Virus record (IMG/VR): IMGVR_UViG_3300025872_002603
Location: 1 to 26,652 of that record
Strand: one strand, 5' to 3'
Length of the DNA: 26,652 nt
Origin: a virus
Below are positions 8,564 through 26,066 of this stretch, in pieces. The translations under genes were made by a program, and so were the position numbers. The notes under the pieces are model-generated. The model was not told where the DNA came from and made no database searches. It saw only the letters and a program-made list of their open reading frames with translations. Numbering within the stretch: the first letter of the stretch is position 1; every line of letters starts with the position of its first letter.

Positions 8564-9903
8564 GATGGTGGATTCAGTTTCGCCGTGTGCGGCTTGTGTT
8601 TCTCGATTGCGAGTTCGTGGTTCAATAGCTCAACCATTTTGGCAAACATGGAGTCCGCTTGTTCGGCCTTTCGCTTCATGTTGTTGAGAACGCCAGACTC
8701 TCCAGTGCTGGAAATCACGTCTATCTTTACCGGATTCTTTTGCCCGAAACGCCACGAACGGCGGATCGATTGATACCACTGCTCAAACGAATGAGACGGG
8801 AAAAACGTCTGATGGGCGCAATGCTGGAAGTTCAATCCCATTCCTGCAATGCTTGGCTTCGTGACGATAACGCGGACATCGCCACGGCAAAACGCTTCAA
8901 ACGATTCCTCTTTGTATTCGTCTGAGTCCGATCCGCAAATCTCGATTGAGTCCGGAATCAGCTTTGAAATCAGATTCCCCTCGTCATTGAGGTGACACCA
9001 AGAGAGCGCGGGCTTTCCGGTTCCGGCAACTAATGAAGCTGCCATTTCGCATCGTTCGTTTAGTGTCCGCTTTCGCTCCTTCCTCTGTTCATCCAGCCCC
9101 ACGGCAGGCATGTCGAAAAGGAAGTCTGGATTGGGCGTTGATGCGGAAACAATATGCTCAACCGTGACAAGTGGCGGAAGAATGTAATCCGTTCCGTCAA
9201 ACCCAAGATCATCCGGCCTGCGAACGGCCCGCGCCCATGAGCAAATCCACTGCCAGAATGCGCCCTTCGCCGCGTGCTTTTTGAGTCTCCATTTTGATGT
9301 ATCCCCGCCGTCGTGGTTGAAGAAGTGCGCCATCATTTCCACGCGGCGCAAATACCCCAACGCCTCGCTCGATGTGCCAAGCTCAATGTAATCGTTCGGG
9401 GCGGCAGTCGCCGTGCAAAGCAACCGATACGGAAGTTTCCGCATGAAGTCCGTCACCTGAGATTTGATTGCCCCGTCGAAGTTTTTCAGGATGGACGACT
9501 CATCGCAAACGACTCCGGCGAATTGCTGCCAGTCGAACTTGTGAAGCTGTTGATAGTTTGTCACCGTGATTTTCGCCGCAACGGTTCCATCCCTCGATTG
9601 CTTCGCTTCGATGCCAAACTTCTCCGCCTCGCGGACGGTCTGCGCCCCAACGCTCAATGGCGTCAGAACGAGGACCGGCTTGTTTGTTTTCTCGACGACG
9701 TTCTGCGCCCAAACAAGCTGCATTGGAGTTTTCCCAAGCCCGCAGTCTGCGAAGATTGCCGCTCGCCCTTTGTTGATAGACCATTCCAATAAAGCCCGTT
9801 GGAATGGGAAAAGGAAATCCGGCAAAAATGACGGGCTGAATCCAAACTCCCCTCCGAGTTGAGATTTTTGGTGTAAGAACTGCTCGTATGTTTCTGTATT
9901 CAT
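8554..9903 (-). CDS. SF2 (SNF2-like) DNA helicase
   Basis: A 449-residue superfamily 2 ATPase. The N-terminal domain has FPFQRALLEW (Q-like motif), Walker A DCGLGKT (53-59), motif II DESS (134-137) and motif III TATAAP (164-169). The C-terminal domain has KPSIAGMGLNFQ and motif VI SIRRSWRFGQ (379-388). These SNF2-like helicases are frequent in phages and probably remodel DNA-protein complexes or stalled forks. It is the first gene after a 128-base gap and begins MNTETYEQF after the leader CTAAAACAGAAAAC, without a Shine-Dalgarno sequence. It probably heads the transcript carrying the MazG-like, methyltransferase and dnaB genes. Confidence 0.88.
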   Translation of the reverse strand: MNTETYEQFLHQKSQLGGEFGFSPSFLPDFLFPFQRALLEWSINKGRAAIFADCGLGKTPMQLVWAQNVVEKTNKPVLVLTPLSVGAQTVREAEKFGIEAKQSRDGTVAAKITVTNYQQLHKFDWQQFAGVVCDESSILKNFDGAIKSQVTDFMRKLPYRLLCTATAAPNDYIELGTSSEALGYLRRVEMMAHFFNHDGGDTSKWRLKKHAAKGAFWQWICSWARAVRRPDDLGFDGTDYILPPLVTVEHIVSASTPNPDFLFDMPAVGLDEQRKERKRTLNERCEMAASLVAGTGKPALSWCHLNDEGNLISKLIPDSIEICGSDSDEYKEESFEAFCRGDVRVIVTKPSIAGMGLNFQHCAHQTFFPSHSFEQWYQSIRRSWRFGQKNPVKIDVISSTGESGVLNNMKRKAEQADSMFAKMVELLNHELAIEKHKPHTAKLNPPSWL

Positions 9904-10031
9904 GTTTTCTGTTTTAGAGTATCACCGTCCCTCGCCGTAGGTTCGGGAATCGTCGCAAGTCTCTTTCAAACCCTAGCAGATAAATCTACTTTGTTTGCAT
10001 GCGCGACTGGCGTTGTGCCACGGTAAATTTG
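9904..10031 (-). other. Non-coding leader between operon segments
   Basis: This 128-bp gap precedes the SF2 helicase gene. It ends with the A-rich leader before ATG. I see no convincing ORF, tRNA cloverleaf or terminator. A short AGAT-AA-ATCT inverted repeat and GGTT…AACC pairing are too weak to call. A promoter may lie here, but no good -10/-35 pair was found. Confidence 0.3.
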
Positions 10032-10316
10032 TTATTTCGTCCGCATTGAAAGGTGCGGTTCAGCCGGTTTGTAAACCGTATCCCCGTCCGCAAAGAGCGC
10101 GTATTGCTCCGTATCTTGGTCCTGCGGGAGTTCAATGCCTTTTACGATAGCGCAATAGGTTGAGTGCTCCGTGATTGCCTGCGCTACTTTGTTAGCCTGC
10201 TTTTCGTCGCCAGTCCTCCAAGGTGTTCCGGCTGAACTTGTGTGCATCGTCCACGTGAACGAACCCGGTGGACGAACGAAAATGAAGTAGTGAATTGGTG
10301 TTGGTTTCATAGTCAT
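10032..10316 (-). CDS. Hypothetical protein
   Basis: A 94-residue protein: MTMKPTPIHYFIFVRPPGSFTWTMHTSS… The first half reads as a beta-hairpin, with KQANKVAQAITEHSTYCAIVKGIELP resembling a helix-strand unit. Small phage proteins with a similar IHYFIFVRPPGSFTW pattern are of unknown function. Its ATG overlaps the upstream TGA as ATGA; a second in-frame ATG two codons in is possible. It ends the recombination operon before the 128-base gap. Confidence 0.6.
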   Translation of the reverse strand: MTMKPTPIHYFIFVRPPGSFTWTMHTSSAGTPWRTGDEKQANKVAQAITEHSTYCAIVKGIELPQDQDTEQYALFADGDTVYKPAEPHLSMRTK

Positions 10317-10756
10317 ATTTTTTCAAACCAAAGTTCACGCGGCGCCGTTGCCCAAAGTCCGCGCTCGATTGATTGCAAAGCATCCCTCGCGATTGGCGCA
10401 TCGTCGTATTGTTCCAGAGCATCTACGGCAATGCGAAGCATCGCCACAAGGCAAGGCGCATCCACCGTGCGAGTTTCCTCCATTTTGTCCAGCATCTCGC
10501 GAATTGTCGGCGGGTCGTGGAAGTGACGCTTCGTCCATCCTTTTTCAATATCCTCGATACTTTCGCCGGCGGGAAGATTGAAGTCAACTTGGTAGTCTGT
10601 TGGATGGCTCATATTGTTTTTCGGTTTCGGTTTCTGGTCGCTTGTATTTGTGCATCCGCTTTCGATTGCTGCCGCCATTGCGGAAGTGACGAATAGCTTT
10701 GCGCTTATGGCGTCGTATTGCGCCCTTGTCTTTTCGGACTCCAAGTCTCGTTTCAT
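10313..10756 (-). CDS. Hypothetical protein, paralogue of the gene at 11391, possible fusion
   Basis: A 147-residue frame. Residues from about 73 (KRHFHDPPTIREMLDKMEET…) to the C-terminus (LQSIERGLWATAPRELW) are clearly related to the 88-residue protein at 11391-11657. The first 48 residues (MKRDLESEKTRAQYDAISAK…SDQKPKPKNN) are unrelated. They end at an internal ATG (10612, MSHPTDYQ) preceded by an A-rich leader (CCGAAACCGAAAAACAAT). This may be a fusion of a small upstream gene with the paralogue after loss of a stop, or the true start may be 10612. The ATGA overlap at 10756 favours the long form. Function unknown. Confidence 0.6.
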   Translation of the reverse strand: MKRDLESEKTRAQYDAISAKLFVTSAMAAAIESGCTNTSDQKPKPKNNMSHPTDYQVDFNLPAGESIEDIEKGWTKRHFHDPPTIREMLDKMEETRTVDAPCLVAMLRIAVDALEQYDDAPIARDALQSIERGLWATAPRELWFEKI

Positions 10757-11394
10757 TTCAACGCCTCCTTTGCCGATTCAATCGCAACGTCGAGGTCGTA
10801 ACGGTCGGATACGCTGATAATTAAATCCACGTTTCGCTCTGCGGTGTAAAGTAGCGCGGAGAATGCATCGCGGAGGCGTTGATTTTCTTCACGCAATTTG
10901 TCCCTATATTGGCATGATTTAGACCAAAACATCCGGCATTCGCGCCATTTCTGAATCAGCCATTCAACAGTCGGAACGATGTTTTTAAACTCGTCCATTG
11001 CGGGACATTCCTCGTTCACTATCGCAAGTGCTTTGTCGATTTGGTTTGCCAGTTTAACGGCTTGCTCCTGCGCGGCGTTGGATTCCGCGATGGACCCCAT
11101 AGCCGCGAGCGCAACGCGGATCTCTGCTATTTCACGCTCCAATTTCTGCGCGAATGTCTTTTCTACCAATGGAACGGTTGCGCCACTTCCGTAAATAGTT
11201 GCCGCATCGGTGCGCGGAGTGTCAGATGGATTGCATGATTCTTTTAGCTCCTCGGATATGGCGTCTGTGCATCTGGAAATCATCGCTTCAAAGCATTCAC
11301 GAGCTTCATCCTGATTATATCTTGGCAATCCACAATTAGAGCATTGCCCGTTGTCGTCAATCGTCACGGAATGTCCGCAATAATTACAGTTCAT
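10753..11394 (-). CDS. Zinc-ribbon and coiled-coil protein with DTPRTDAA motif
   Basis: A 213-residue protein with three parts. The N-terminal zinc ribbon is CNYCGHSVTIDDNGQCSNCG. The middle module, SDTPRTDAATIYGSG…KTFAQKLEREI, is a motif pair shared with the gene at 3888. The rest is long charged helix (REENQRLRDAFSALLYTAERNVDL). It is flanked on both sides by the duplicated paralogue pair and ATGA-coupled to both, so the trio behaves as a unit. A DNA-associated or structural scaffolding role is conceivable; no catalytic motif was seen. Confidence 0.65.
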   Translation of the reverse strand: MNCNYCGHSVTIDDNGQCSNCGLPRYNQDEARECFEAMISRCTDAISEELKESCNPSDTPRTDAATIYGSGATVPLVEKTFAQKLEREIAEIRVALAAMGSIAESNAAQEQAVKLANQIDKALAIVNEECPAMDEFKNIVPTVEWLIQKWRECRMFWSKSCQYRDKLREENQRLRDAFSALLYTAERNVDLIISVSDRYDLDVAIESAKEALK

Positions 11395-11657
11395 TTTGCC
11401 TCCTTTTGCTCATACCAAAGTTCTTTCGCCGCCGTAGCCCAAAGTCCGCGCTCGATGCTCTGGAGCGTTCCGGTTGCAAGGTCGCCGTTGTCATCTAGTC
11501 GCGTCTCCGGCCCTTGTCCGTTAGCATACCAGTTTAGCGTGTTCACGGCTATGCGAAGCATTGCCACAAGGCACGGCGCGTCACAAGTCCGAGTTTCTTC
11601 CATGTGGTCGAGCATCTCACGTATTGTCGGAGGGTCGTTAAAGTGTCGCTTTTCCAT
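11391..11657 (-). CDS. Hypothetical protein, duplicate of the gene at 10313
   Basis: An 88-residue protein: MEKRHFNDPPTIREMLDHMEETR…, then DAPCLVAMLRIAVNTLNWY, and finally TLQSIERGLWATAAKELWYEQ. About 60 residues match the C-terminal part of the protein at 10313-10756. The DNA is also clearly similar (roughly 80 percent by eye in the best stretch), so the duplication is fairly recent. This copy has an extra loop (NGQGPETRLDDNGDLATG) absent in the other. It starts one base after the nuclease stop (TAATATG). Confidence 0.65.
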   Translation of the reverse strand: MEKRHFNDPPTIREMLDHMEETRTCDAPCLVAMLRIAVNTLNWYANGQGPETRLDDNGDLATGTLQSIERGLWATAAKELWYEQKEAK

Positions 11658-11658
11658 A

Positions 11659-12786
11659 TTATTTGATTCGCTGAACCGGCTGTTGATGTTCTGTTGTGTC
11701 GATTAGTTCCGAGAATAGCTCTTCAAAATGGTCGAACGCCTGATTGCCTTTTAGGTCTGATAGCTTGGCGTGTAGTTCCTGCAACTTCGGGACTGATATC
11801 TTGCAGCATCTGGCAAGCTCAACAGTCTCGAAACAATCAAAATGCGCCGCGAGCGTTGCGCCGATGAGCGGAATCTTATCCGGTGAAATCTCGCGGGTTT
11901 TCTTCGCCTTGCCAAGTCCCCATCCTTCCGCCCATCCGTCTCCGTTTTTGCGAATGCCGTCTTTCAATTCTGCAATGCTCTTTTCTGCTATCTTTGCTAT
12001 CATCTGGAGTTTGTCGAGCCAATCCGCACGTTCTTCCGGTGAAGCGGTTTCAATGTCGAATTGCGCCGTGCCGAGTGTGACTAGTGCCTTTTGACTTTCT
12101 GGGCATCGTGCCGTTCCCGCGGCCTTGCAAAACTTACATTGCTTCGGGCCGACGATGCGCTTTGCGTTAGGGTCGTTTGACGCAAGAACTCGTTCGCACA
12201 TTTCGCGGTAAGCTCGCATCAAATCCTTTTCGGAATAGCGGACGAGTTTCACATCCTCGATGCGCCAAGCTACGTTCGGCTGATTGATATATGCCGTAAC
12301 CGATTGCACGCCGTAATTGCAGTAAATCAAAGCGGCAAGGTCGCGAAGCTGCTCGTTCTCGTCCGCGTCGTCGTGGTCACCGTAAAGCGATTTGAGGTCT
12401 TCCAGAAGCGCGTGCTTGCCGTTCTCCGCGTCAACTATCCAAAACGCATCTGCCTGCCCGCTGTGCGTCTCCACGTAGTCCCACATGCGCTTTTCGCGAT
12501 GGCATTCTGCCGGTGCTTTCACGTCGATTCCGCAAAGCCAGTTGCCGAGGATGATGCTTTCAATTTCTTTTGCTCGCCGCAGCGTTTTCGCGCTCTCACT
12601 ATCCAAAACGCTTTCCGGCTTCTCGCCAGCAAATACCGCGTGAATCAGCGTCCCTTGGCTTGCCTCTGCGCTTTCTTTTTCTGCTAGTCCTCGCTGCGCC
12701 AAATGCCTGCCGGGGCAAAGCCGGTCCGCTGCTGCGTTGCTTGCGCTTGTGTGTCCGCGTCGTTCGTCTTTCTGTTCTGTGTTCAT
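11659..12786 (-). CDS. Cas4/RecB-like PD-(D/E)XK nuclease with Fe-S cysteines (phage recombination exonuclease)
   Basis: A 375-residue nuclease, probably the exonuclease partner of RecT. The order fits the Cas4/AddB-like PD-(D/E)XK family: Cys24 in RLCPG, His49 in SQGTLIHA, Asp113 in GQADAFW, Asp130-x-Lys132 in LLEDLKS, Gln146 in EQLRDLAAL, then Cys217-xx-Cys220-x7-Cys228 in KQCKFCKAAGTARCPE. One N-terminal and three C-terminal cysteines are the arrangement that binds a 4Fe-4S cluster in this family. It resembles DUF2800-type phage proteins. Start chosen: ATG 12786 with leader ACTTTCAACAGAAAACAC; an upstream GTG (12828) is less likely. Confidence 0.78.
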   Translation of the reverse strand: MNTEQKDERRGHTSASNAAADRLCPGRHLAQRGLAEKESAEASQGTLIHAVFAGEKPESVLDSESAKTLRRAKEIESIILGNWLCGIDVKAPAECHREKRMWDYVETHSGQADAFWIVDAENGKHALLEDLKSLYGDHDDADENEQLRDLAALIYCNYGVQSVTAYINQPNVAWRIEDVKLVRYSEKDLMRAYREMCERVLASNDPNAKRIVGPKQCKFCKAAGTARCPESQKALVTLGTAQFDIETASPEERADWLDKLQMIAKIAEKSIAELKDGIRKNGDGWAEGWGLGKAKKTREISPDKIPLIGATLAAHFDCFETVELARCCKISVPKLQELHAKLSDLKGNQAFDHFEELFSELIDTTEHQQPVQRIK

Positions 12787-13004
12787 GTGTTTTCTGTTGA
12801 AAGTTGTGCAGTTCTCTCCTGCTGTCACGCCCTTTGCTTACGGTTGCGACCCGTTATGGCTGGATGACGTTCCCAATGTGTATTGCAGCCGAGCAAGTTG
12901 CCGGAACTTTCCAGCGTTCGCGCCTGCTCGTTTCGTGCCGTCTCACCCATGAAAGGTCATAGACTGTCCGGCATTATTCCCGCGATGGAACTGCAAAAGT
13001 GTTT
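12787..13004 (-). other. Non-coding gap between RecT and nuclease genes
   Basis: These 218 bp contain no recognised gene. A 41-codon frame (12825-12950, minus, MGETARNEQ…) ends in a GTGA with the optional GTG start of the nuclease, but its composition is not convincing. The gap ends with the A-rich leader of the nuclease gene. It may allow separate regulation of exonuclease and RecT levels. Confidence 0.3.
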
Positions 13005-13808
13005 TCACCAAGTCTCATCCTTGGTCGCAAGTTCCGGCTCCGGTTCTTTCGGTGATTCGGTTGCCTCAATCGCTGGCTGTTCTCCGAAGATTGAGCTTGC
13101 AATTTGCTTTTCAGTGAACTTCGGCGCGAATACCTGCGTCAGTGAGTATTCCTCTTTCGCCTCAGTATCAAGTGCCGCGCTTTGCTCTGGCGACAATGGC
13201 CAGCGTTTGCTCATTCTTCGAAGAACGGTCTTTTTACCCATCTCCGCGTAATCCGTTACCCAAGGTCCTGAACCGCTAGCCTTGCTGCGTTTGCGGATCG
13301 CGTCAACTTCTGCCTTTGTCATAACCTCAACATCCGTGTTGCCATCGCGAATGCAGGTAGCTGCGAATGCGACAAGCTCGCCTCGGTCGCCAAGGAAGTT
13401 CGGTTGCCACTTAAAGGTTACGTTTGCGCCGTCCATTCCGTATTCAAAAACATCGTTCTTGTGAACTGCTATTGCCCGAATGTTTTGCACGCCGTTCCGC
13501 TCTGCAATTTGAACAAGCCCCTTGTAATCAAAGATGACTTGAACCGTCGAGCCGTAAGGAATCAAATGCGCGTTCCGTCCGTCTGGAAGCAATCCAGCCT
13601 GCGCGCACAACATGAGAGCGTTTAAGAGGCTCGCTGGCGTGCAATCCGCTAGCTTCGGGACTCTGGCAATCGTTCCGACCATTACGCGGGTCATCTGTTC
13701 TGCGGTGAGATACTTTGGCAATACCTCCGCAATTTTACCGCGCATCTCGTCGCTTGTGATAAGCGAGCGGATATCCTGCTTCGGTGCTTTTTCTAGTTCG
13801 TTGCTCAT
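13005..13808 (-). CDS. recT: RecT-family single-strand annealing protein
   Basis: A 267-residue annealing protein for homologous recombination. The conserved core includes CTPASLLNALMLCAQAGLLPDG (56-77), HLIPYGSTVQVIFDYKGLVQIAERNG (81-106), and GPWVTDYAEMGKKTVLRRMSKRWPLS (181-206). The C-terminus is an acidic, Pro-rich tail. It would bind single strands produced by the Cas4-like nuclease encoded downstream and pair them with complementary DNA. The frame is open to 13868, but MSNELEKAPK at 13808 makes an ATGA with the ribbon-helix-helix gene, so that start is used. Confidence 0.92.
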   Translation of the reverse strand: MSNELEKAPKQDIRSLITSDEMRGKIAEVLPKYLTAEQMTRVMVGTIARVPKLADCTPASLLNALMLCAQAGLLPDGRNAHLIPYGSTVQVIFDYKGLVQIAERNGVQNIRAIAVHKNDVFEYGMDGANVTFKWQPNFLGDRGELVAFAATCIRDGNTDVEVMTKAEVDAIRKRSKASGSGPWVTDYAEMGKKTVLRRMSKRWPLSPEQSAALDTEAKEEYSLTQVFAPKFTEKQIASSIFGEQPAIEATESPKEPEPELATKDETW

Positions 13809-13957
13809 TGTTTCTCTTTTCGGTCCCTGAGTGTAATGAAGATATGAGCCGATAAAGACCTGCCACACGATTCGGCTTCTTGTTTTAGTTCTGCTTTTAG
13901 TTTCAACGGAAGATGAACCGCAGTCATCTCTCGCTTTTCTTTTTTTGGTGTTGTCAT
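13805..13957 (-). CDS. Ribbon-helix-helix (Arc/CopG-like) protein
   Basis: A 50-residue basic protein: MTTPKKEKREMTAVHLPLKLKAEL… The segment MTAVHLPLKLKAELKQEAES followed by CGRSLSAHIFITL has the beta-strand plus two-helix pattern of Arc/CopG DNA-binding proteins, with residues around TAVHLP forming the DNA-contacting strand of the dimer. It could repress its own operon or another phage promoter. It starts with leader CACCAATTTAACAAC and is ATGA-coupled to recT. It is the clearest candidate regulator in the window. Confidence 0.7.
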   Translation of the reverse strand: MTTPKKEKREMTAVHLPLKLKAELKQEAESCGRSLSAHIFITLRDRKEKQ

Positions 13958-14085
13958 GTTGTTAAATTGGTGAGCGCGGCAAGTTGGCACTTGCTCCGGG
14001 TTTGACGCGGGCCGATTGTATCGCCGTCATCTGACCGCACCTTACATTAGGGATGCTTGGCCGTTGCATTTTCGCGCTCAAATTG
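13958..14085 (-). other. Non-coding leader with a perfect short hairpin
   Basis: This 128-bp region upstream of the ribbon-helix-helix gene has a perfect hairpin, GCAAGT-TGGC-ACTTGC (13979-13994), and longer-range GAGCGCG/CGCGCTC pairing across most of the gap. That could form a structured 5' leader in the RHH-recT transcript or an operator for the RHH protein. A 35-codon frame here (MQRPSIPNV…) is not convincing. Confidence 0.35.
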
Positions 14086-14307
14086 TTAAAGTTCTCCGAG
14101 TGCCTTAGCGATGCAGTAAATCGCATACCAGATTGCGGCGTTGAGAATTAAGATGCAAACGCATCCAATTCCGCGAGCCTGCCATTGCTCTTTCAATTCG
14201 CGCTCGTTTTCCTCATCGCGACGTTTCAATACGTCTAGATAGGCAAGTGCTTTCTTGTTCCGTTCGTGACGCTCGTTCGCGGAGCTATCGTGGATTGAGT
14301 CGTTCAT
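14086..14307 (-). CDS. Small membrane protein with C-terminal TM segment
   Basis: A 73-residue protein. The first 45 residues are highly charged helix (NERHERNKKALAYLDVLKRRDEENERELKEQW). The rest contains one hydrophobic stretch, CVCILILNAAIWYAIYCIA (about 49-67), likely a tail-anchored transmembrane helix with the charged part in the cytoplasm. Possible roles are a superinfection-exclusion or lysis accessory protein. It is not beside the lysis genes and no family was recognised. Confidence 0.6.
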   Translation of the reverse strand: MNDSIHDSSANERHERNKKALAYLDVLKRRDEENERELKEQWQARGIGCVCILILNAAIWYAIYCIAKALGEL

Positions 14308-14318
14308 GTGGTATGATA

Positions 14319-14504
14319 TTAGAGTGCACCAAAATCGTCATAAAACGCCGTGCAATCGTCGTCTTCGGTGTCGCCGCGCTCTGGGAAATAAACTCCAACG
14401 CGGTCGCTTCCGATAAAACTGATGCGTCCTTTTTCTCCAACGTTCCAATTGCTATTCTCCGATGTCATCCGGACCCATGTTCCAACTTCAATTTTTGTTT
14501 TCAT
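14319..14504 (-). CDS. Small beta-barrel-like hypothetical protein
   Basis: A 61-residue protein: MKTKIEVGTWVRMTSENSNW…, with NVGEKGRISFIGSDRVGVYFPE and an acidic tail (DTEDDDCTAFYDDFGAL). The pattern of short strands with G-E-K-G-R looks like an SH3/KOW-type barrel. The ATG at 14504 has the conserved leader ACAGAATCACAAAAC and is preferred to the longer frame starting at 14576, whose N-terminus (MRACFYLHRQHDAGEQ) is only the leader translated. Function unknown. Confidence 0.6.
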   Translation of the reverse strand: MKTKIEVGTWVRMTSENSNWNVGEKGRISFIGSDRVGVYFPERGDTEDDDCTAFYDDFGAL

Positions 14505-14589
14505 GTTTTGTGATTCTGTTTTGTTTTTCTGTTCGCCAGCGTCGTGCTGACGGTGGAGATAAAAGCACGCCCGCAAAAAAGACGCAATA

Positions 14590-14635
14590 ACTTTTTTAAA
14601 CTTTTTTCAAAGTGACGAAAAAAGAGTAAAAAAGT
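14590..14635 (-). repeat. AT-only 19-bp inverted repeat, possible terminator of the late operon
   Basis: ACTTTTTTAAACTTTTTTC (14590-14608) is an inverted copy, with two mismatches, of 14617-14635, around an 8-base loop. On the minus strand it lies about 33 bases after the endolysin stop and ends with a T-rich arm. It could stop late transcription before the early genes, though the stem lacks G:C pairs and may instead be a melting or protein-binding site. Confidence 0.45.
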
Positions 14636-14668
14636 GGATTGACTTTCCGGATGGAAAATATCAGCGCG

Positions 14669-15166
14669 TCAAACCATGAACCGGATGCGAGAGCGTATTT
14701 TACTGACGTGCCGCAGCTTTTTAAATACGCCGCCGCCCTCTCTGCTTCCCATCATATCAGTATTACCCTCACACGTTTGAACGTCTCCGTTTTCGTCCGG
14801 CGAGGAAAGCGCGATGCCAATATGCGAGAACGTGAAAACAACAATGTCGCCCGCTTCAATGTCGTCGCCGTGCGGTTTCTTCGTTTGCGTGCTGTTGTCT
14901 TGCGCCAAGCTCCAATTTTCAAAACCCCATGCGCTAGCCGTAGTCGGTCGTTTGAATGTCGCAGTCTCGCGGACTCTCGCGGACTTCATCGCCTCGCGGA
15001 CTACCCAACAGACAAAAGCAGCACACCACGGCCACGATTGCTTCGGGTCGAGATTCGTTGCGCCTTTGTATTCATTCACTCGCGGGCCGCAGTTTGTTCC
15101 GTCGATTTCCTCAACTCCAATTTCGTTTTTTGCGATGCGGCAGATTTCTTCGCGTAGTTTTGTCAT
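14669..15166 (-). CDS. CHAP-domain endolysin
   Basis: A 165-residue cysteine peptidase/amidase that cuts peptidoglycan at lysis. The CHAP/NlpC-like motifs are WPWCAAFVCW (catalytic Cys48), FSHIGIAL (His115) and CEGNTD (Glu133/Asn135 region), preceded by the NEIGVEEIDGTNCGPRVNEY lead-in found in many phage CHAP lysins. No signal peptide or cell-wall-binding domain is present, so export depends on a holin. It is ATGA-coupled to the small lipoprotein upstream and ends the late operon. Confidence 0.85.
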   Translation of the reverse strand: MTKLREEICRIAKNEIGVEEIDGTNCGPRVNEYKGATNLDPKQSWPWCAAFVCWVVREAMKSARVRETATFKRPTTASAWGFENWSLAQDNSTQTKKPHGDDIEAGDIVVFTFSHIGIALSSPDENGDVQTCEGNTDMMGSREGGGVFKKLRHVSKIRSRIRFMV

Positions 15167-15291
15167 GGCAGCGGTGTAGCTTTAATCTCCACGCTTGGCG
15201 AGACGGTGACAATGCAGGTTTTTGCGTGAATGGTTGCGCTTGTCACGCAACTGGAAAGCATTGCGGCGAATAAAACGAAGATGAGCTTCAT
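15163..15291 (-). CDS. Small lipoprotein, Rz1-like outer-membrane spanin candidate
   Basis: A 42-residue frame: MKLIFVLFAAMLSSCVTSAT… It has a short basic-hydrophobic signal followed by a lipobox, LSSC, with Cys15 as the lipidated residue. The mature peptide of about 28 residues includes VTVSPSVEIK. It begins in an ATGA with the receiver-domain gene and ends in an ATGA with the endolysin, so it is almost certainly translated. Its size and position match Rz1-type spanins that join inner and outer membranes at lysis. A second cysteine in the mature part could form dimers. The inner partner is probably the protein at 15704. Confidence 0.72.
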   Translation of the reverse strand: MKLIFVLFAAMLSSCVTSATIHAKTCIVTVSPSVEIKATPLP

Positions 15292-15707
15292 ACAAAAGCG
15301 AGTAAAGCCCGTGTCATCCTCTCGGTTTCTCCGGTCGCGTCAGAGTATCGCGTCTGCGCTAGTTGTGCGTTTGCTAATGCCTCGCGAATATGTCCGGAGT
15401 GGAACGGCTTTTTTAGAACTGAGTCCACCGCGTATTTCGCGTTGCCAATATCTGAGGAATGTCCGGTCATTAGAACGAATGCAGCATCGCCTGCGAGCCT
15501 TCGCAGCATTGGCATCATTTCAAAAGTCTTTTCAGCCGTGGAGTCCGGCAATTTCAAGTCGAGAAAAACAACGTCAAACTCGTGATCTTGCAACGCCTTG
15601 ATTGCTGCCTTCATCGAATGCACGCATTTTTTCGCGTAGCCGATTAGAACCGTTGAGACTGACGCCGTTGTTTCCTCGTCATCGTCAATAATGAGTGCGG
15701 ACTTCAT
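15288..15707 (-). CDS. Stand-alone response-regulator receiver (REC) domain
   Basis: A 139-residue protein with a complete CheY-like receiver domain. It has the acidic pair in ALIIDDDEE (Asp8/Asp9), the phosphoacceptor Asp50 in VVFLDLKLPD, the signalling Thr81 in VLMTGHSS and the invariant Lys100 in VLKKPF. There is no output domain: after residue 110 only a short helix follows (REALANAQLAQTRYSD…). All residues needed for phosphorylation are present, so it is probably functional. A two-component receiver inside a phage lysis operon, coupled by ATGA to a holin/spanin-like gene and a lipoprotein, is unusual. It might sense or sequester a host phosphosignal that times lysis; that is inference. 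Confidence 0.9.
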   Translation of the reverse strand: MKSALIIDDDEETTASVSTVLIGYAKKCVHSMKAAIKALQDHEFDVVFLDLKLPDSTAEKTFEMMPMLRRLAGDAAFVLMTGHSSDIGNAKYAVDSVLKKPFHSGHIREALANAQLAQTRYSDATGETERMTRALLAFV

Positions 15708-16006
15708 TGCGATGCGACTCGTTCCGCTGTCCGGATTGCCTCAATTCTTTTGCTCGCGAGATCCGCCATCACGCGGGCGGCATCCTCGTTGTTGATGTTT
15801 TTATACACCAACGCAATGATTGCATCGGCCAAGCACCCTAGCATCTGCTGCGACGCCTGCTGTTCTTTCATGCGTTCATCATGGAAACGCTTATCTTGTT
15901 CCAATTTCAAGCTGCAATACCATTTCCCAAACGCAAGAGCAGCAACAAGGAAAACAAGGGGCCAGCCGCCTTTCTCCCATGCTTGGTAAAGCTGAGTCGG
16001 TTCCAT
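15704..16006 (-). CDS. Holin- or inner-spanin-like membrane protein
   Basis: A 100-residue protein with a short N-terminus, one transmembrane helix (GWPLVFLVAALAFGKWYCSL, about 14-33) and a charged coiled-coil C-terminal part (KLEQDKRFHDERMKEQQASQQ). One TM plus coiled coil fits either a type-III/BhlA-like holin or an inner-membrane i-spanin of the Rz type. The small lipoprotein two genes downstream favours a spanin, but then the holin is missing. It begins MEPTQLYQAWEKG and is ATGA-coupled to the receiver-domain gene. Both roles remain open. Confidence 0.6.
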   Translation of the reverse strand: MEPTQLYQAWEKGGWPLVFLVAALAFGKWYCSLKLEQDKRFHDERMKEQQASQQMLGCLADAIIALVYKNINNEDAARVMADLASKRIEAIRTAERVASQ

Positions 16007-16009
16007 TTG

Positions 16010-16942
16010 TTACCTTGAAACGGTTGCGCGAAGTTTTACCGCGTCAAGGATGAATGACTTTGCCGCTGCCGTCGCGTCGTTTCCGATGATTCCGCAAATG
16101 TAGCGCGTAATTCCGCCGACGCTGTTTGTGTTTGTGACAGTTACTTCGTTTCCGAACGCACCGCCGTTTGTGTTCATGCTCATCTTGTATTCGAGATTGG
16201 TGCCTGTGTTTCTGATTCTAAGCGTATGCCAGTTTGTATCCGCTGCAACTCCGAGGCTTGATGCTGTCTCTGCCCCTCCATCTTTTACTACGGCCATGAA
16301 GTTCGTATCGCCGCTGCTTGTATCGTAACGTAGATACTCTCCGCGGCCCGGTGATACAGCCGAGTAGTCATTCATCACTCCAATTCGGAAACGAGTTACC
16401 GTTGTCTGGTTTAGTTTGAACGTAATTCGCACCTCGAACTGAATCGGCGTAGAAGCGTCAACAAAAACAAAAGGCGAAAGCGCGCTGCCGCCAACATACA
16501 ACGAAGAGGCATTCCCCGATGCCGCCGCGCATGCGGTTTGATACTGCCCCGGATTGTTTAGCGTTCCGGCGATGTAAGCGTAGGAGCCGCTTCCGCTGAT
16601 TGTCCCCTGACGCCATCCAAGCATTCCGATTTGTCCGTCAGCATTAGTGCCGCCGATGAAATCCTCTTCAAGGACAACGATATTTTGAGCAACAAAAAGG
16701 TCCGTCACGGACGCGATAAGGTTCGCTGATGTTGGCGTTGCGAGAAGCGTGCTGACGCCAGTGCCAAGTCCTGAAACTCCCGTCGCGATTGGTAATCCCG
16801 TGCAGTTTGTCAGCGTGCCGCTTGTCGGTGTTCCTATTGCGCCAAGTGTTTTTGTGACGTTGGTAAGGTTAATCGTTCCGCCGCTAGGCGTCCCGTCAAG
16901 CGTTCCCTGAATCAGTCCGTTTTTAATTGGAAATTGAGCCAT
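16010..16942 (-). CDS. Tail fibre / receptor-binding protein with lectin-like C-terminus
   Basis: A 310-residue protein. The N-terminal third has the phage tail-protein motif NCTGLPIATGVSGLGTGVST…LLATPTSANLIASVTD, found in many tail fibres and tail-associated proteins. From about residue 90 the sequence is beta-rich and resembles a concanavalin-like jelly roll (PIQFEVRITFKL, TNWHTLRIRNTGTNLEYKM), suggesting glycan binding. It would attach virions to the host surface. No endopeptidase or chaperone motif is seen. It follows the 371-residue structural gene by one base (TAATATG) and lies just before the lysis genes. Confidence 0.75.
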   Translation of the reverse strand: MAQFPIKNGLIQGTLDGTPSGGTINLTNVTKTLGAIGTPTSGTLTNCTGLPIATGVSGLGTGVSTLLATPTSANLIASVTDLFVAQNIVVLEEDFIGGTNADGQIGMLGWRQGTISGSGSYAYIAGTLNNPGQYQTACAAASGNASSLYVGGSALSPFVFVDASTPIQFEVRITFKLNQTTVTRFRIGVMNDYSAVSPGRGEYLRYDTSSGDTNFMAVVKDGGAETASSLGVAADTNWHTLRIRNTGTNLEYKMSMNTNGGAFGNEVTVTNTNSVGGITRYICGIIGNDATAAAKSFILDAVKLRATVSR

Positions 16943-16943
16943 A

Positions 16944-18059
16944 TTAAAGCGTTACTTTGTAGTCGAGGCGGTAATCAGTTGTCGCGTCTCCATTAAGGTA
17001 TACCGTGAATCCGGTTGTCGCCTTGTCGTCGATTGTCTGTGGCGACAATTTCAGTCCCGGCGAGCCTGCTCCGGTATAGATGACTTCCAAACTGATAATG
17101 TCATACGTCGAAGCCGAAAGCGCGGTGGAAAACGTAACCGTTGCCGAGTCCGTTGTTGAAAGCGTTACGCTCCCTTCGCGGTAATTGCTGCTCGCTGTTC
17201 CAGACGGGAATGTCTGCCCGTCACGGTAAAGGCTATTGACTATTTCGAGCGTGAACAGCGGCGAGATTTGCGGTGCCGTTCCATCGAGGTAAACAAGCTG
17301 CCCGTTGTATCCTACGCTCGCAATGTCTGTGTCTGTTTCCGGAACGCTTCCCGCCGTCACCAATATTACGGTAAAGCCTGTCCCGTGAGGTGCGTGATTC
17401 CCTTTCAAGCCCCATTCCGAAAAGGTCACGGTCACGGTATCGGTTGCTACGGAATAACTAGAATTAAATGCAGTATCTATCGCGTCCCCTAGCGCAGTTG
17501 CTACCGTGCTGGCTGTCGCATTGTTCGCAACATTGATCTTGTGAAGCGTTCCTCCGCCTGACGATGGCGGCGTCACCGTGGTTCCAGTAGTCTCAAACCA
17601 GAATCGCGTGAAGTCCGTAGCGGTATAGTAAATGTCTATATACTGCCCGTCCAAACGCATGAGCGTATTGGCTAAACACTGGATTGTAATCTGTTCCTGT
17701 GCGAATCCTACGTTTGCGGCAAGTGCCTTCAAAAACACCGGGGCCGCGAAGTCAATGCTGCCTTCGTAATAATAGTCCCCGAGGTCATCTACCGTCGTGC
17801 GAGTGAATACGGGGGATGCAACAACGGGCGCAACGTCAAAGCGATTGTTTCCAGTAGACGGTTTAACAATAAGCTCAATGGACGGATCAGCGCCTAAGTC
17901 GAGATACCGCCGCGTATCTCCGCTTGCGCCACGATAGAAGCCAATCCGGAACGTCTGTTGAGACGGCACGGGAACCGTCAACTTGTCCTGCAAAGCCGTG
18001 TCGAGTCCGGACAAGTCCAGAATGTTATTGTCAATATCCCATGTGATTAGATTCGGCAT
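16944..18059 (-). CDS. Distal tail / baseplate-type structural protein
   Basis: A 371-residue, beta-rich protein starting MPNLITWDIDNNILDLSGLD. The middle contains a Ser/Gly/Pro linker (TPPSSGGGTLHKINV). The C-terminal domain (FSTALSASTYDIISLEVIYTG…GLKLSPQTIDDKATTGFTVYLNG…YRLDYKV) resembles the small beta-sandwich H-type tail domains found in distal tail and fibre proteins. Position between tape measure and fibre supports a tail-tip role. Exact function is unknown. Confidence 0.6.
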   Translation of the reverse strand: MPNLITWDIDNNILDLSGLDTALQDKLTVPVPSQQTFRIGFYRGASGDTRRYLDLGADPSIELIVKPSTGNNRFDVAPVVASPVFTRTTVDDLGDYYYEGSIDFAAPVFLKALAANVGFAQEQITIQCLANTLMRLDGQYIDIYYTATDFTRFWFETTGTTVTPPSSGGGTLHKINVANNATASTVATALGDAIDTAFNSSYSVATDTVTVTFSEWGLKGNHAPHGTGFTVILVTAGSVPETDTDIASVGYNGQLVYLDGTAPQISPLFTLEIVNSLYRDGQTFPSGTASSNYREGSVTLSTTDSATVTFSTALSASTYDIISLEVIYTGAGSPGLKLSPQTIDDKATTGFTVYLNGDATTDYRLDYKVTL

Positions 18060-18077
18060 CCTTCTAGAGTGTTTTCG

Positions 18078-18893
18078 TCAAATTGGTTCCCCTGTGATAA
18101 CGCTGCGGAGTTGTGCGCCGGTTGCGGCGTCGTAAATCGGGTGAGTTCCGTCGGCGAGCGCGTATGGCCACCATGTCTTCGGCGTGAGGTAGATTTCGAT
18201 GTCACCGATTGCCGTTCCGCCTGTTCCCCAACGGATCGGAATCACTTCGCCATCGATGGACATGGTCAAATCTCCATACGTTCCCGCCGCCGTGCTGTCG
18301 TAGGTCTGCCCGTCCATAAATCCGGGCGGTGATCCGGATTTCGTCCAAGCGACATTGATGAAGAAACCTATCTGCGGAATCATTTCCGCGTCGTCAATCG
18401 GCGGCTGCGTCGCCGTCATCTTATACTGCGGCGGATAGACTCCGTATGCACCGAACAGGTAAAGCGTCGGCGTGATTTGCAGCGTATCACCGCTGATGTC
18501 TATTTCGACTTGGTTCCCGAAAGCGTTCGATGTGATGATGTGCCCGTAAGGTGCCCGATCGTATCCGTCGCACAAGTCGCGTTCGTCGGCGATGTATGCG
18601 GTATCCGTGTCTGGTCGTAGCGTGTCCGCGATGAAGAGTTCGATATTCTGCTCCGGGAAACCGTCTGATGGGTCGGTGCCGGTGATTTGCATGTTCCACG
18701 TCCTAACTCGCCAATACCACCGCACGCATTTCTGCACGCTGACAACTTTCGGCCATCGTGTGAGTCCCGTTGCTGCGTCAAGCGTCGGCTGATATTCTCC
18801 CCGAAACGGGAAGAGTAACGCCATCGGGTCGGGCGGCTGAATTGTCGAAACAGCCTGCGCCGGGTCGGTAGGTAAAAAGTGAGGAACTCTCAT
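18078..18893 (-). CDS. Hypothetical structural protein of the tail-tip module
   Basis: A 271-residue beta-rich protein (MRVPHFLPTDPAQAVSTIQ…), with many aromatic residues (WYWRVRTWNMQITG) and Asp/Gly loops. No known domain was recognised. It lies between the tape measure and the distal tail genes and overlaps the next gene by ATGA, so a virion component is likely. The absence of a signal peptide fits. Confidence 0.55.
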   Translation of the reverse strand: MRVPHFLPTDPAQAVSTIQPPDPMALLFPFRGEYQPTLDAATGLTRWPKVVSVQKCVRWYWRVRTWNMQITGTDPSDGFPEQNIELFIADTLRPDTDTAYIADERDLCDGYDRAPYGHIITSNAFGNQVEIDISGDTLQITPTLYLFGAYGVYPPQYKMTATQPPIDDAEMIPQIGFFINVAWTKSGSPPGFMDGQTYDSTAAGTYGDLTMSIDGEVIPIRWGTGGTAIGDIEIYLTPKTWWPYALADGTHPIYDAATGAQLRSVITGEPI

Positions 18894-19144
18894 GCTGGCG
18901 GGTCGGGTTCAACCGTGATTAAGATGGGAATCATCGCTGGCACAACTGCGCCGTTTGCGATGATGTAACAAAGCCGCTGAGACGAAAGCCCGATGGAAAC
19001 GCTGCCGTCGGGGTTCTCTATGACTTCGGTTTGCCCTTGCAAATCTTTCACGTCAGTCGAACGGCGCAACAAGTCTTTCAACCTAGCGCCGCTTAGCACG
19101 TATGTCTTTTTAACGTCGATATCCTGCCAGTGCGGTTTTTCCAT
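18890..19144 (-). CDS. Small hypothetical protein of the tail module
   Basis: An 84-residue protein: MEKPHWQDIDVKKTYVLSGARLKDLLRR…, with VIENPDGSVSIGLSSQRLCYIIANG and a Pro-rich tail. It resembles small phage tail-module proteins of unknown function. It starts one base after the preceding stop (TAATATG) and ends in an ATGA with the next gene, fitting a tightly coupled tail operon. Confidence 0.6.
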   Translation of the reverse strand: MEKPHWQDIDVKKTYVLSGARLKDLLRRSTDVKDLQGQTEVIENPDGSVSIGLSSQRLCYIIANGAVVPAMIPILITVEPDPPA

Positions 19145-25631: not shown

Positions 25632-26066
25632 TTAGGAGAGCAAAGTGTTTTTGTGCTTCTGGAAAAATGCGAAGCGGTCTTCGCCTTCCAGTGTCGCATA
25701 GTGCGCCTTGATTTGCGTCGGCGTATTGAGTTCGGTCGCGCCGGTGGAGTCCTGTTTGATTGGTGCTTTCGCGCCAAAGCGTGCGCCGGTTTCGCGGGCC
25801 TTTGCCGCTTCGAGCTTCGCGTCGTCGCGTGCTTTTTCAGCTTCGAGCTTCGCGGCTTCGGCGGCTTCGAGCTTCGCGGTTAGGTCAGCGTTTGCAGCTT
25901 CGGCAGTTGCGAGCTTTGCGGTTGCTTCGTTCGTCGCGGTGTTCGCGGCTTCGATGTCTTTCTGCGTCCCGGCGATGATAGCCTTTGCAGCGTCGAGTTC
26001 ATTTGTCAGGCTCACGATTTGCGCGGCCTTTGCGTCAATGTCAGAAGCGAGTTCGGAAATGCTCAT
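25632..26066 (-). CDS. Coiled-coil scaffold protein candidate
   Basis: A 144-residue protein, mostly Ala/Lys/Glu/Asp-rich coiled coil (SLTNELDAAKAIIAGTQKD, then repeated EAAKARETGA-type heptads), with a C-terminal domain (TPTQIKAHYATLEGEDRFAFFQKHKNTLL). It is placed between the prohead protease and the major capsid gene, exactly where scaffolds lie, and is probably removed by the protease during maturation. The start MSISELASD at 26066 is set by the ATGA overlap; the frame is open upstream to 26279 but that part lies over the protease gene. Confidence 0.7.
   Translation of the reverse strand: MSISELASDIDAKAAQIVSLTNELDAAKAIIAGTQKDIEAANTATNEATAKLATAEAANADLTAKLEAAEAAKLEAEKARDDAKLEAAKARETGARFGAKAPIKQDSTGATELNTPTQIKAHYATLEGEDRFAFFQKHKNTLLS

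Follow-up and report, generated by a model that had tools for sequence, protein, structure and literature searches.

Lysis timing is known in detail for few phages (lambda, T4 and phi21), where the clock is either phage-intrinsic or set by superinfection. Among the closest described systems, the gp62/gp63 lysis regulator and pinholin of phage N4 (PMC12642591) are similar to the locus reported here in that a small cytoplasm-facing regulator adjoins a membrane lysis protein and is linked to timing. The N4 'Receiver domain' (PMC12642591) is a segment of the pinholin, unlike the CheY-like receiver domain (REC) of our locus. CtrA-dependent lytic deferment is similar in another respect, as host two-component signalling has been proposed as the timer of the lytic programme (PMC9437464). 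There the host's own regulator acts on phage promoters, whereas the phage examined here carries a REC without a DNA-binding domain in its lysis operon. The cyclic-phosphate processing receiver (cREC) of jumbo phages (PMC7824862; PF20274) is likewise a receiver-like phage domain, but it neighbours NAD-processing genes rather than lysis genes, and our REC falls below the cut-off of the cREC profile PF20274 (15.3 vs 27 bits). Single-domain response regulators such as CheY and Myxococcus EpsW (NCBIfam NF041866) consist, like our REC, of the receiver alone with a full active site, and action by protein contact is presumed for them as for our REC. A precedent for direct action is EpsW, which activates the membrane enzyme EpsZ (PMC12802240). 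Our REC differs from CheY and EpsW in being encoded by a phage within a lysis operon, in having no kinase in cis, and in carrying three inserted residues behind the phospho-Asp together with a shortened alpha-4. The open-licence literature searched holds no description of a CheY-like receiver within a phage lysis cassette, which is not proof of absence.

The window, the whole stretch of DNA analysed, is a 26,652-base IMG/VR virus contig. On its minus strand the 5' to 3' order is tail/fibre-like gene, membrane/coiled-coil protein, REC, lipoprotein and CHAP endolysin:

16010..16942, minus strand: tail/fibre-like protein, ending 3 bases before the membrane gene; it marks the same position in relatives
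15704..16006, minus strand: 100-aa membrane-anchored coiled-coil protein, the proposed REC partner (charge pattern, dN/dS, co-occurrence)
15704-15707, minus strand: ATGA stop/start overlap of membrane protein and REC
15288..15707, minus strand: stand-alone receiver domain (REC), 139 aa (Pfam, AlphaFold2, PDB fold matches, conserved residues)
15288-15291, minus strand: ATGA stop/start overlap of REC and lipoprotein
15163..15291, minus strand: 42-aa lipoprotein with lipobox LSSC at Cys15, a candidate outer-membrane lysis component
15163-15166, minus strand: ATGA stop/start overlap of lipoprotein and endolysin
14669..15166, minus strand: CHAP endolysin, 165 aa (Pfam 4.9e-7; PHROG lysis family 8.5e-13)

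Four window genes are thus chained by three consecutive ATGA overlaps, and the relatives have overlaps or near-overlaps. The preliminary description had placed a 139-residue receiver at 15288-15707, joined by ATGA overlaps to a transmembrane/coiled-coil protein on one side and to a lipoprotein on the other, with an endolysin following. All of this was confirmed; the gene reads on the minus strand, the third overlap joins the lipoprotein to the endolysin, and both the Pfam and the PHROG match identify the latter. By its position REC belongs to the lysis cassette, being co-operonic with the endolysin and retained across relatives (the ATGA chain, six phages and the Alteromonas parallels described below). 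Compared with an Rz/Rz1 spanin pair, in which an inner-membrane protein with a periplasmic coil goes with a small lipoprotein, the lipoprotein is present, the charge pattern places the window coil in the cytoplasm, and no spanin family was matched. The 42-aa lipoprotein may serve as an o-spanin.

REC begins with a start codon at 15705-15707 and ends with a stop at 15288-15290. Residues 5-111 match Pfam Response_reg (PF00072) with E = 1.9e-10 and 41.4 bits (cut-off 30.2). Modelling with AlphaFold2 depended on depth: five sequences gave a pLDDT of 57, and 29 sequences gave a mean of 85.9, with block means of 90-97 for residues 1-80 and 101-110. The top PDB fold matches to the model are all response regulators, with query-based TM-scores of up to 0.77, and the predicted structure is a (beta/alpha)5 receiver fold. 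The active-site set is present, consisting of the acidic pair Asp8/Asp9, the phospho-acceptor Asp50, Thr81 and Lys100; the acidic pair (D/E-D), D50, T81 and K100 are retained in 5/5 distinct homologues. Residues 5-111 are followed by a helical tail of about 28 residues alone. REC is therefore a single-domain response regulator, with no output domain in the same protein. The earlier claims of a complete CheY-like receiver and of a missing output domain both hold. No histidine-kinase ATPase domain (HATPase_c) turned up in the window or in seven related records, which may be fragments, and by this search of eight records the locus does not qualify as a two-component system with its cognate kinase nearby.

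The REC gene was found in seven IMG/VR contigs, two identical to the window over part of its length and the remainder representing five phages. The six distinct REC phages are the window, 3300016265_001126, 3300024358_000053, 3300033571_009498, 3300032290_000772 and 3300020044_006524. The two contigs with 100% identity to the window, along a 9.6-kb stretch (9291-18940), are 3300006641_002391 and 3300025848_001900; they represent the same phage in several samples. Two groups can be distinguished. Group A (window, L004, L009) has the order membrane protein, REC, lipoprotein, endolysin. In group B (L012, L013, L022) REC and lipoprotein are separated by a further membrane protein of 64 aa. This protein (L012:13800-13994) has one transmembrane segment and is a holin candidate; group A has no separate holin candidate apart from the 100-aa protein. 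Both REC groups share the 3-residue insertion after the phospho-Asp and the shortened alpha-4. The best NCBIfam match of the group B REC is EpsW (6.8e-7, far below the cut-off).

The endolysin slot holds a CHAP enzyme in the window and an unrelated peptidoglycan-binding/M15 type in all other REC phages. The swap (window 14669-15166 vs L004:6542-7105) lies behind a membrane protein-REC-lipoprotein block that is about 89% identical. Lipoprotein, M15 endolysin and 227-aa tail protein keep 83-94% identity from group A to group B (39% for the L009 lipoprotein), whereas the membrane protein and REC are only about 30% identical, suggesting that this pair moves or diverges together as one exchangeable unit. 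The window lipoprotein is 83-95% identical in relatives, L009 excepted. When the 227-aa tail protein was used to find contigs, REC was present in all that extend as far as the cassette; L008 and L010 end earlier. The motif LDLKL(P/Q)DSxxExT occurs, by exact scan, in exactly seven contigs in all of IMG/VR, every one with a REC cassette, and in 0/388 Verrucomicrobiota genomes. A further 59 loci sharing the M15 endolysin have no REC within 5 kb; they carry membrane-coil protein, holin and lipoprotein in varied order. As the PF00072 search over viral records missed the group B RECs, absence was called by scanning the ORFs within 5 kb with a broader HMM.

REC is under strong purifying selection, even across endolysin replacement. 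Its dN/dS is 0.07 for window-L004, 0.14 for window-L009 and 0.02 for L012-L022, and that of the membrane protein is 0.01-0.02 in close pairs (0.01 for window vs L004). The five distinct REC homologues form one clade on a long stem with support 99/97 in a 43-sequence tree and 99/93 in another. The preliminary description had named two results that would count against it: that relatives lack the linkage to lysis genes, and that REC is a recent single insertion from a host chromosome. The linkage was present in every relative that carries the cassette. Recent insertion was rejected on the single clade (99/97) with its long stem, the shared indels, the dN/dS of 0.02-0.14 and the specificity of the motif.

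Cultivated Alteromonas phages of five or six types, comprising podo-, sipho- and myoviruses, show the same architecture. In these a stand-alone REC comes after a membrane-anchored coiled-coil gene of 93-125 aa, amid holin, spanin or endolysin genes. In R8W and H4/4 the order is holin, coil, REC, membrane protein. R8W gp48 is a 153-aa REC (Pfam 1.5e-21) that overlaps by ATGA a 98-aa membrane-coil gene preceded by a class II holin; the R8W endolysin is encoded about 10 kb away from this cluster. R9Y1-3 have the order coil, REC, GH108 lysozyme; in R9Y1, 4-base overlaps join a membrane-coil gene of 121 aa to a REC of 150 aa, and the REC to the lysozyme. XX1924 and PB15 carry a coil protein of the PHROG 'hemolysin' type, REC, a DUF5675 protein or M15 endolysin, and a 3-TM holin. 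PT15-A5 (Schitoviridae) and PT11-V22 (Myoalterovirus) have an Rz-like spanin and a small two-helix membrane protein behind the membrane coil and REC, after which PT15-A5 has its annotated endolysin. PT11-V19 and R22Y carry, directly behind the membrane-coil gene, a receiver-like gene that has lost the phospho-Asp and Lys. These degenerate receivers lie at L255:3998-4450 and L260:5001-5465, and that of R22Y is convergent with lysis-like neighbours, one DUF5675-like gene and one membrane gene. Homologues of the R8W and V22 coil proteins occur solely beside REC among 50,697 phage records (6/6 and 3/3, respectively). Many INPHARED hits (OR84-85, MT83-84, CAKLQ and AFYI/AGRM records) were set aside because they look like bacterial DNA.

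The Alteromonas RECs share with the window the membrane coil to REC order and the lysis-gene neighbours; they differ in host phylum, in the lysis genes themselves and in forming a separate clade in the best tree. Searching cultivated phages by tblastn with the window and L022 RECs gave no hits, and the L009 REC gave weak hits. The tree separates Alteromonas RECs and the window type into two clades (SH-aLRT 96 each), and a single origin of the two is not rejected (AU p = 0.16), so the independent recurrences may be two, or one. A search for other phages with REC among their lysis genes had been proposed, and these phages, with coil and REC beside holin, spanin or endolysin genes, answer it. The earlier statement that two-component proteins are not a normal part of phage lysis operons fits the literature searched but is too strong, as the arrangement recurs in Alteromonas phages. 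The fold is ordinary; its genomic place is unusual and recurrent. Because Alteromonas phages show the same membrane-coil/REC pairing beside lysis genes, the case for REC in lysis control is strengthened.

Alteromonas phage RECs have been labelled PhoB, CheY-like, hybrid/sensor kinase "auxiliary metabolic genes", or hypothetical. R8W gp48 was annotated as 'putative DNA-binding response regulator' and interpreted by its authors as PhoB in low-phosphate adaptation (PMC8228385), and the V22 REC is listed as a class II signalling AMG (PMC7289586). RECs are common host genes, and with these published annotations one could take REC for a passenger or auxiliary metabolic gene with no role in lysis, as the R8W and V22 authors assumed. 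We consider this very improbable in view of the strong purifying selection, the slot kept despite the endolysin swap, the translational coupling and the recurrence; moreover, gp48 has no DNA-binding domain in Pfam. The alternative offered in the preliminary description, a passenger gene taken from the host, is likewise disfavoured by purifying selection and a fixed slot in six phages.

What could REC act upon? The 100-aa window protein upstream has a hydrophobic stretch at residues 17-35 with one Lys/Arg before it and four after, and is predicted to be N-out/C-in. A coil after an N-terminal hydrophobic stretch, with more Lys/Arg behind than ahead, is found in the window, group B, R8W, R9Y1, V19 and V22 proteins, and charge counts predict a cytoplasmic coil in each. 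In the XX1924 and PB15 partners the coil comes first and the membrane anchor is C-terminal, which likewise leaves the coil inside. The corresponding segments in L009 and A5 are weakly hydrophobic. The window protein matched no Pfam family and did not match the XhlA-type 'hemolysin' PHROG 937, the family matched by the XX1924 and PB15 partners (1e-12 and 2e-16). At the search sensitivity used, its homologues in IMG/VR occur only beside REC. The match between group A and group B membrane proteins is weak (hhalign probability 7%, E 0.005) and no more than suggestive of homology. Coiled-coil membrane proteins are also present in related cassettes without REC, indicating that REC is not essential to such a lysis design. 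Reversed topology was considered as a mark of REC phages and dropped, since REC-less relatives such as L031 share the charge pattern.

We lean towards the view that REC and the upstream membrane-anchored coiled-coil protein constitute a two-gene lysis-regulator module. The gene linkage is firm and a role in lysis likely; the pair probably acts on lysis timing, and its two proteins would bind each other. The membrane protein would hold its coiled coil on the cytoplasmic face of the inner membrane, where REC would dock on it. Once a host histidine kinase or acetyl phosphate had phosphorylated Asp50, the output face of REC would change and with it the grip on the coil, and the changed grip would advance or delay holin action and endolysin release. 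The phage records yielded no kinase, so host kinases or acetyl phosphate would have to supply the input. Such control by the host is plausible. For the window type, phosphorylation as the input is nearly an even call, leaning slightly against. It cannot be required in every lineage, as the V19 and R22Y RECs are without phospho-Asp and Lys.

In V19 and R22Y the receiver-like gene still follows the membrane-coil gene though both residues are gone, as would be expected if REC were a structural partner of the coil, antiholin-like or a scaffold, with phosphorylation irrelevant and the active site an inherited part of the fold. Yet window-type and most Alteromonas RECs retain the acidic pair, phospho-Asp, Thr/Ser and Lys at 30-47% overall identity, a pattern that suggests selected catalysis and makes a purely structural role unlikely. 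REC might instead act late in infection as a phosphate sink or decoy, draining a host histidine kinase or blocking some host pathway, with the lysis operon used merely for late expression. REC is indeed stand-alone with no phage kinase found, the phage protein PIT4 binds host kinases (PMC10714779) and the host response regulator CtrA controls phage genes (PMC9437464). A sink would leave unexplained both the fixed upstream membrane-coil partner in unrelated phages and the retention of REC without phospho-Asp, and we judge it decidedly unlikely.

Our preferred reading, a receiver and membrane-coil module acting on lysis, suggests that some phages let the host signalling state help time lysis. 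In its broadest form it holds that unrelated phages of at least two bacterial phyla recruited a stand-alone receiver and coupled it to a membrane coil near the holin, letting the phosphorylation state of host kinases directly decide lysis time; this form is put forward tentatively, as somewhat less likely than not. If the module is real, host signalling would reach the lysis machinery directly through it, and several response regulators now classed as 'auxiliary metabolic' would move into the lysis system. The module is testable now, as the cultivated Alteromonas phages R8W, R9Y1 and V22 carry the same pairing.

The host of the window phage is probably a member of the Verrucomicrobiota. A Verrucomicrobiota genome encodes an M15 endolysin 58% identical to that of L004, adjoining lipoprotein and holin-like genes, and many weaker homologues of the L004 enzyme occur in the phylum. 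Similarity of REC to a Verrucomicrobiota HTH-REC protein may be a further host clue, a weak lead. This highly conserved protein of 183-190 aa has an N-terminal excisionase-type HTH (LTVKETAxYLRIPLPTVYYLVQRGQLPAIQIGGRWRIK) and a C-terminal receiver (L098:7824-8375 and about 60 other loci), and is apparently a phylum-wide regulator.

In the Verrucomicrobiota genomes first examined, this family ranked first or close to first among the hits for both REC types, raising the idea that REC is a dominant-negative copy captured without the HTH. Those genomes had been chosen by sequence pattern; in 57 evenly drawn genomes the family stands out only in two that had been pre-chosen. The tree does not place phage RECs beside HTH-REC with support, and a common clade is not rejected (AU p = 0.35). 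An origin from this family was therefore set aside, and the dominant-negative reading is extremely improbable.

Two further features of the window lie outside the lysis cassette. Small genes at 10313-10756 and 11391-11657 share a duplicated stretch (10425-10531 and 11545-11651; 82% identical DNA), and the duplicated protein contains FHDPPTIREMLDKMEETRT... A 33-base tandem repeat (1.9 copies) at 25792-25854 lies within a coding stretch for an Ala/Glu/Lys-rich coiled coil.
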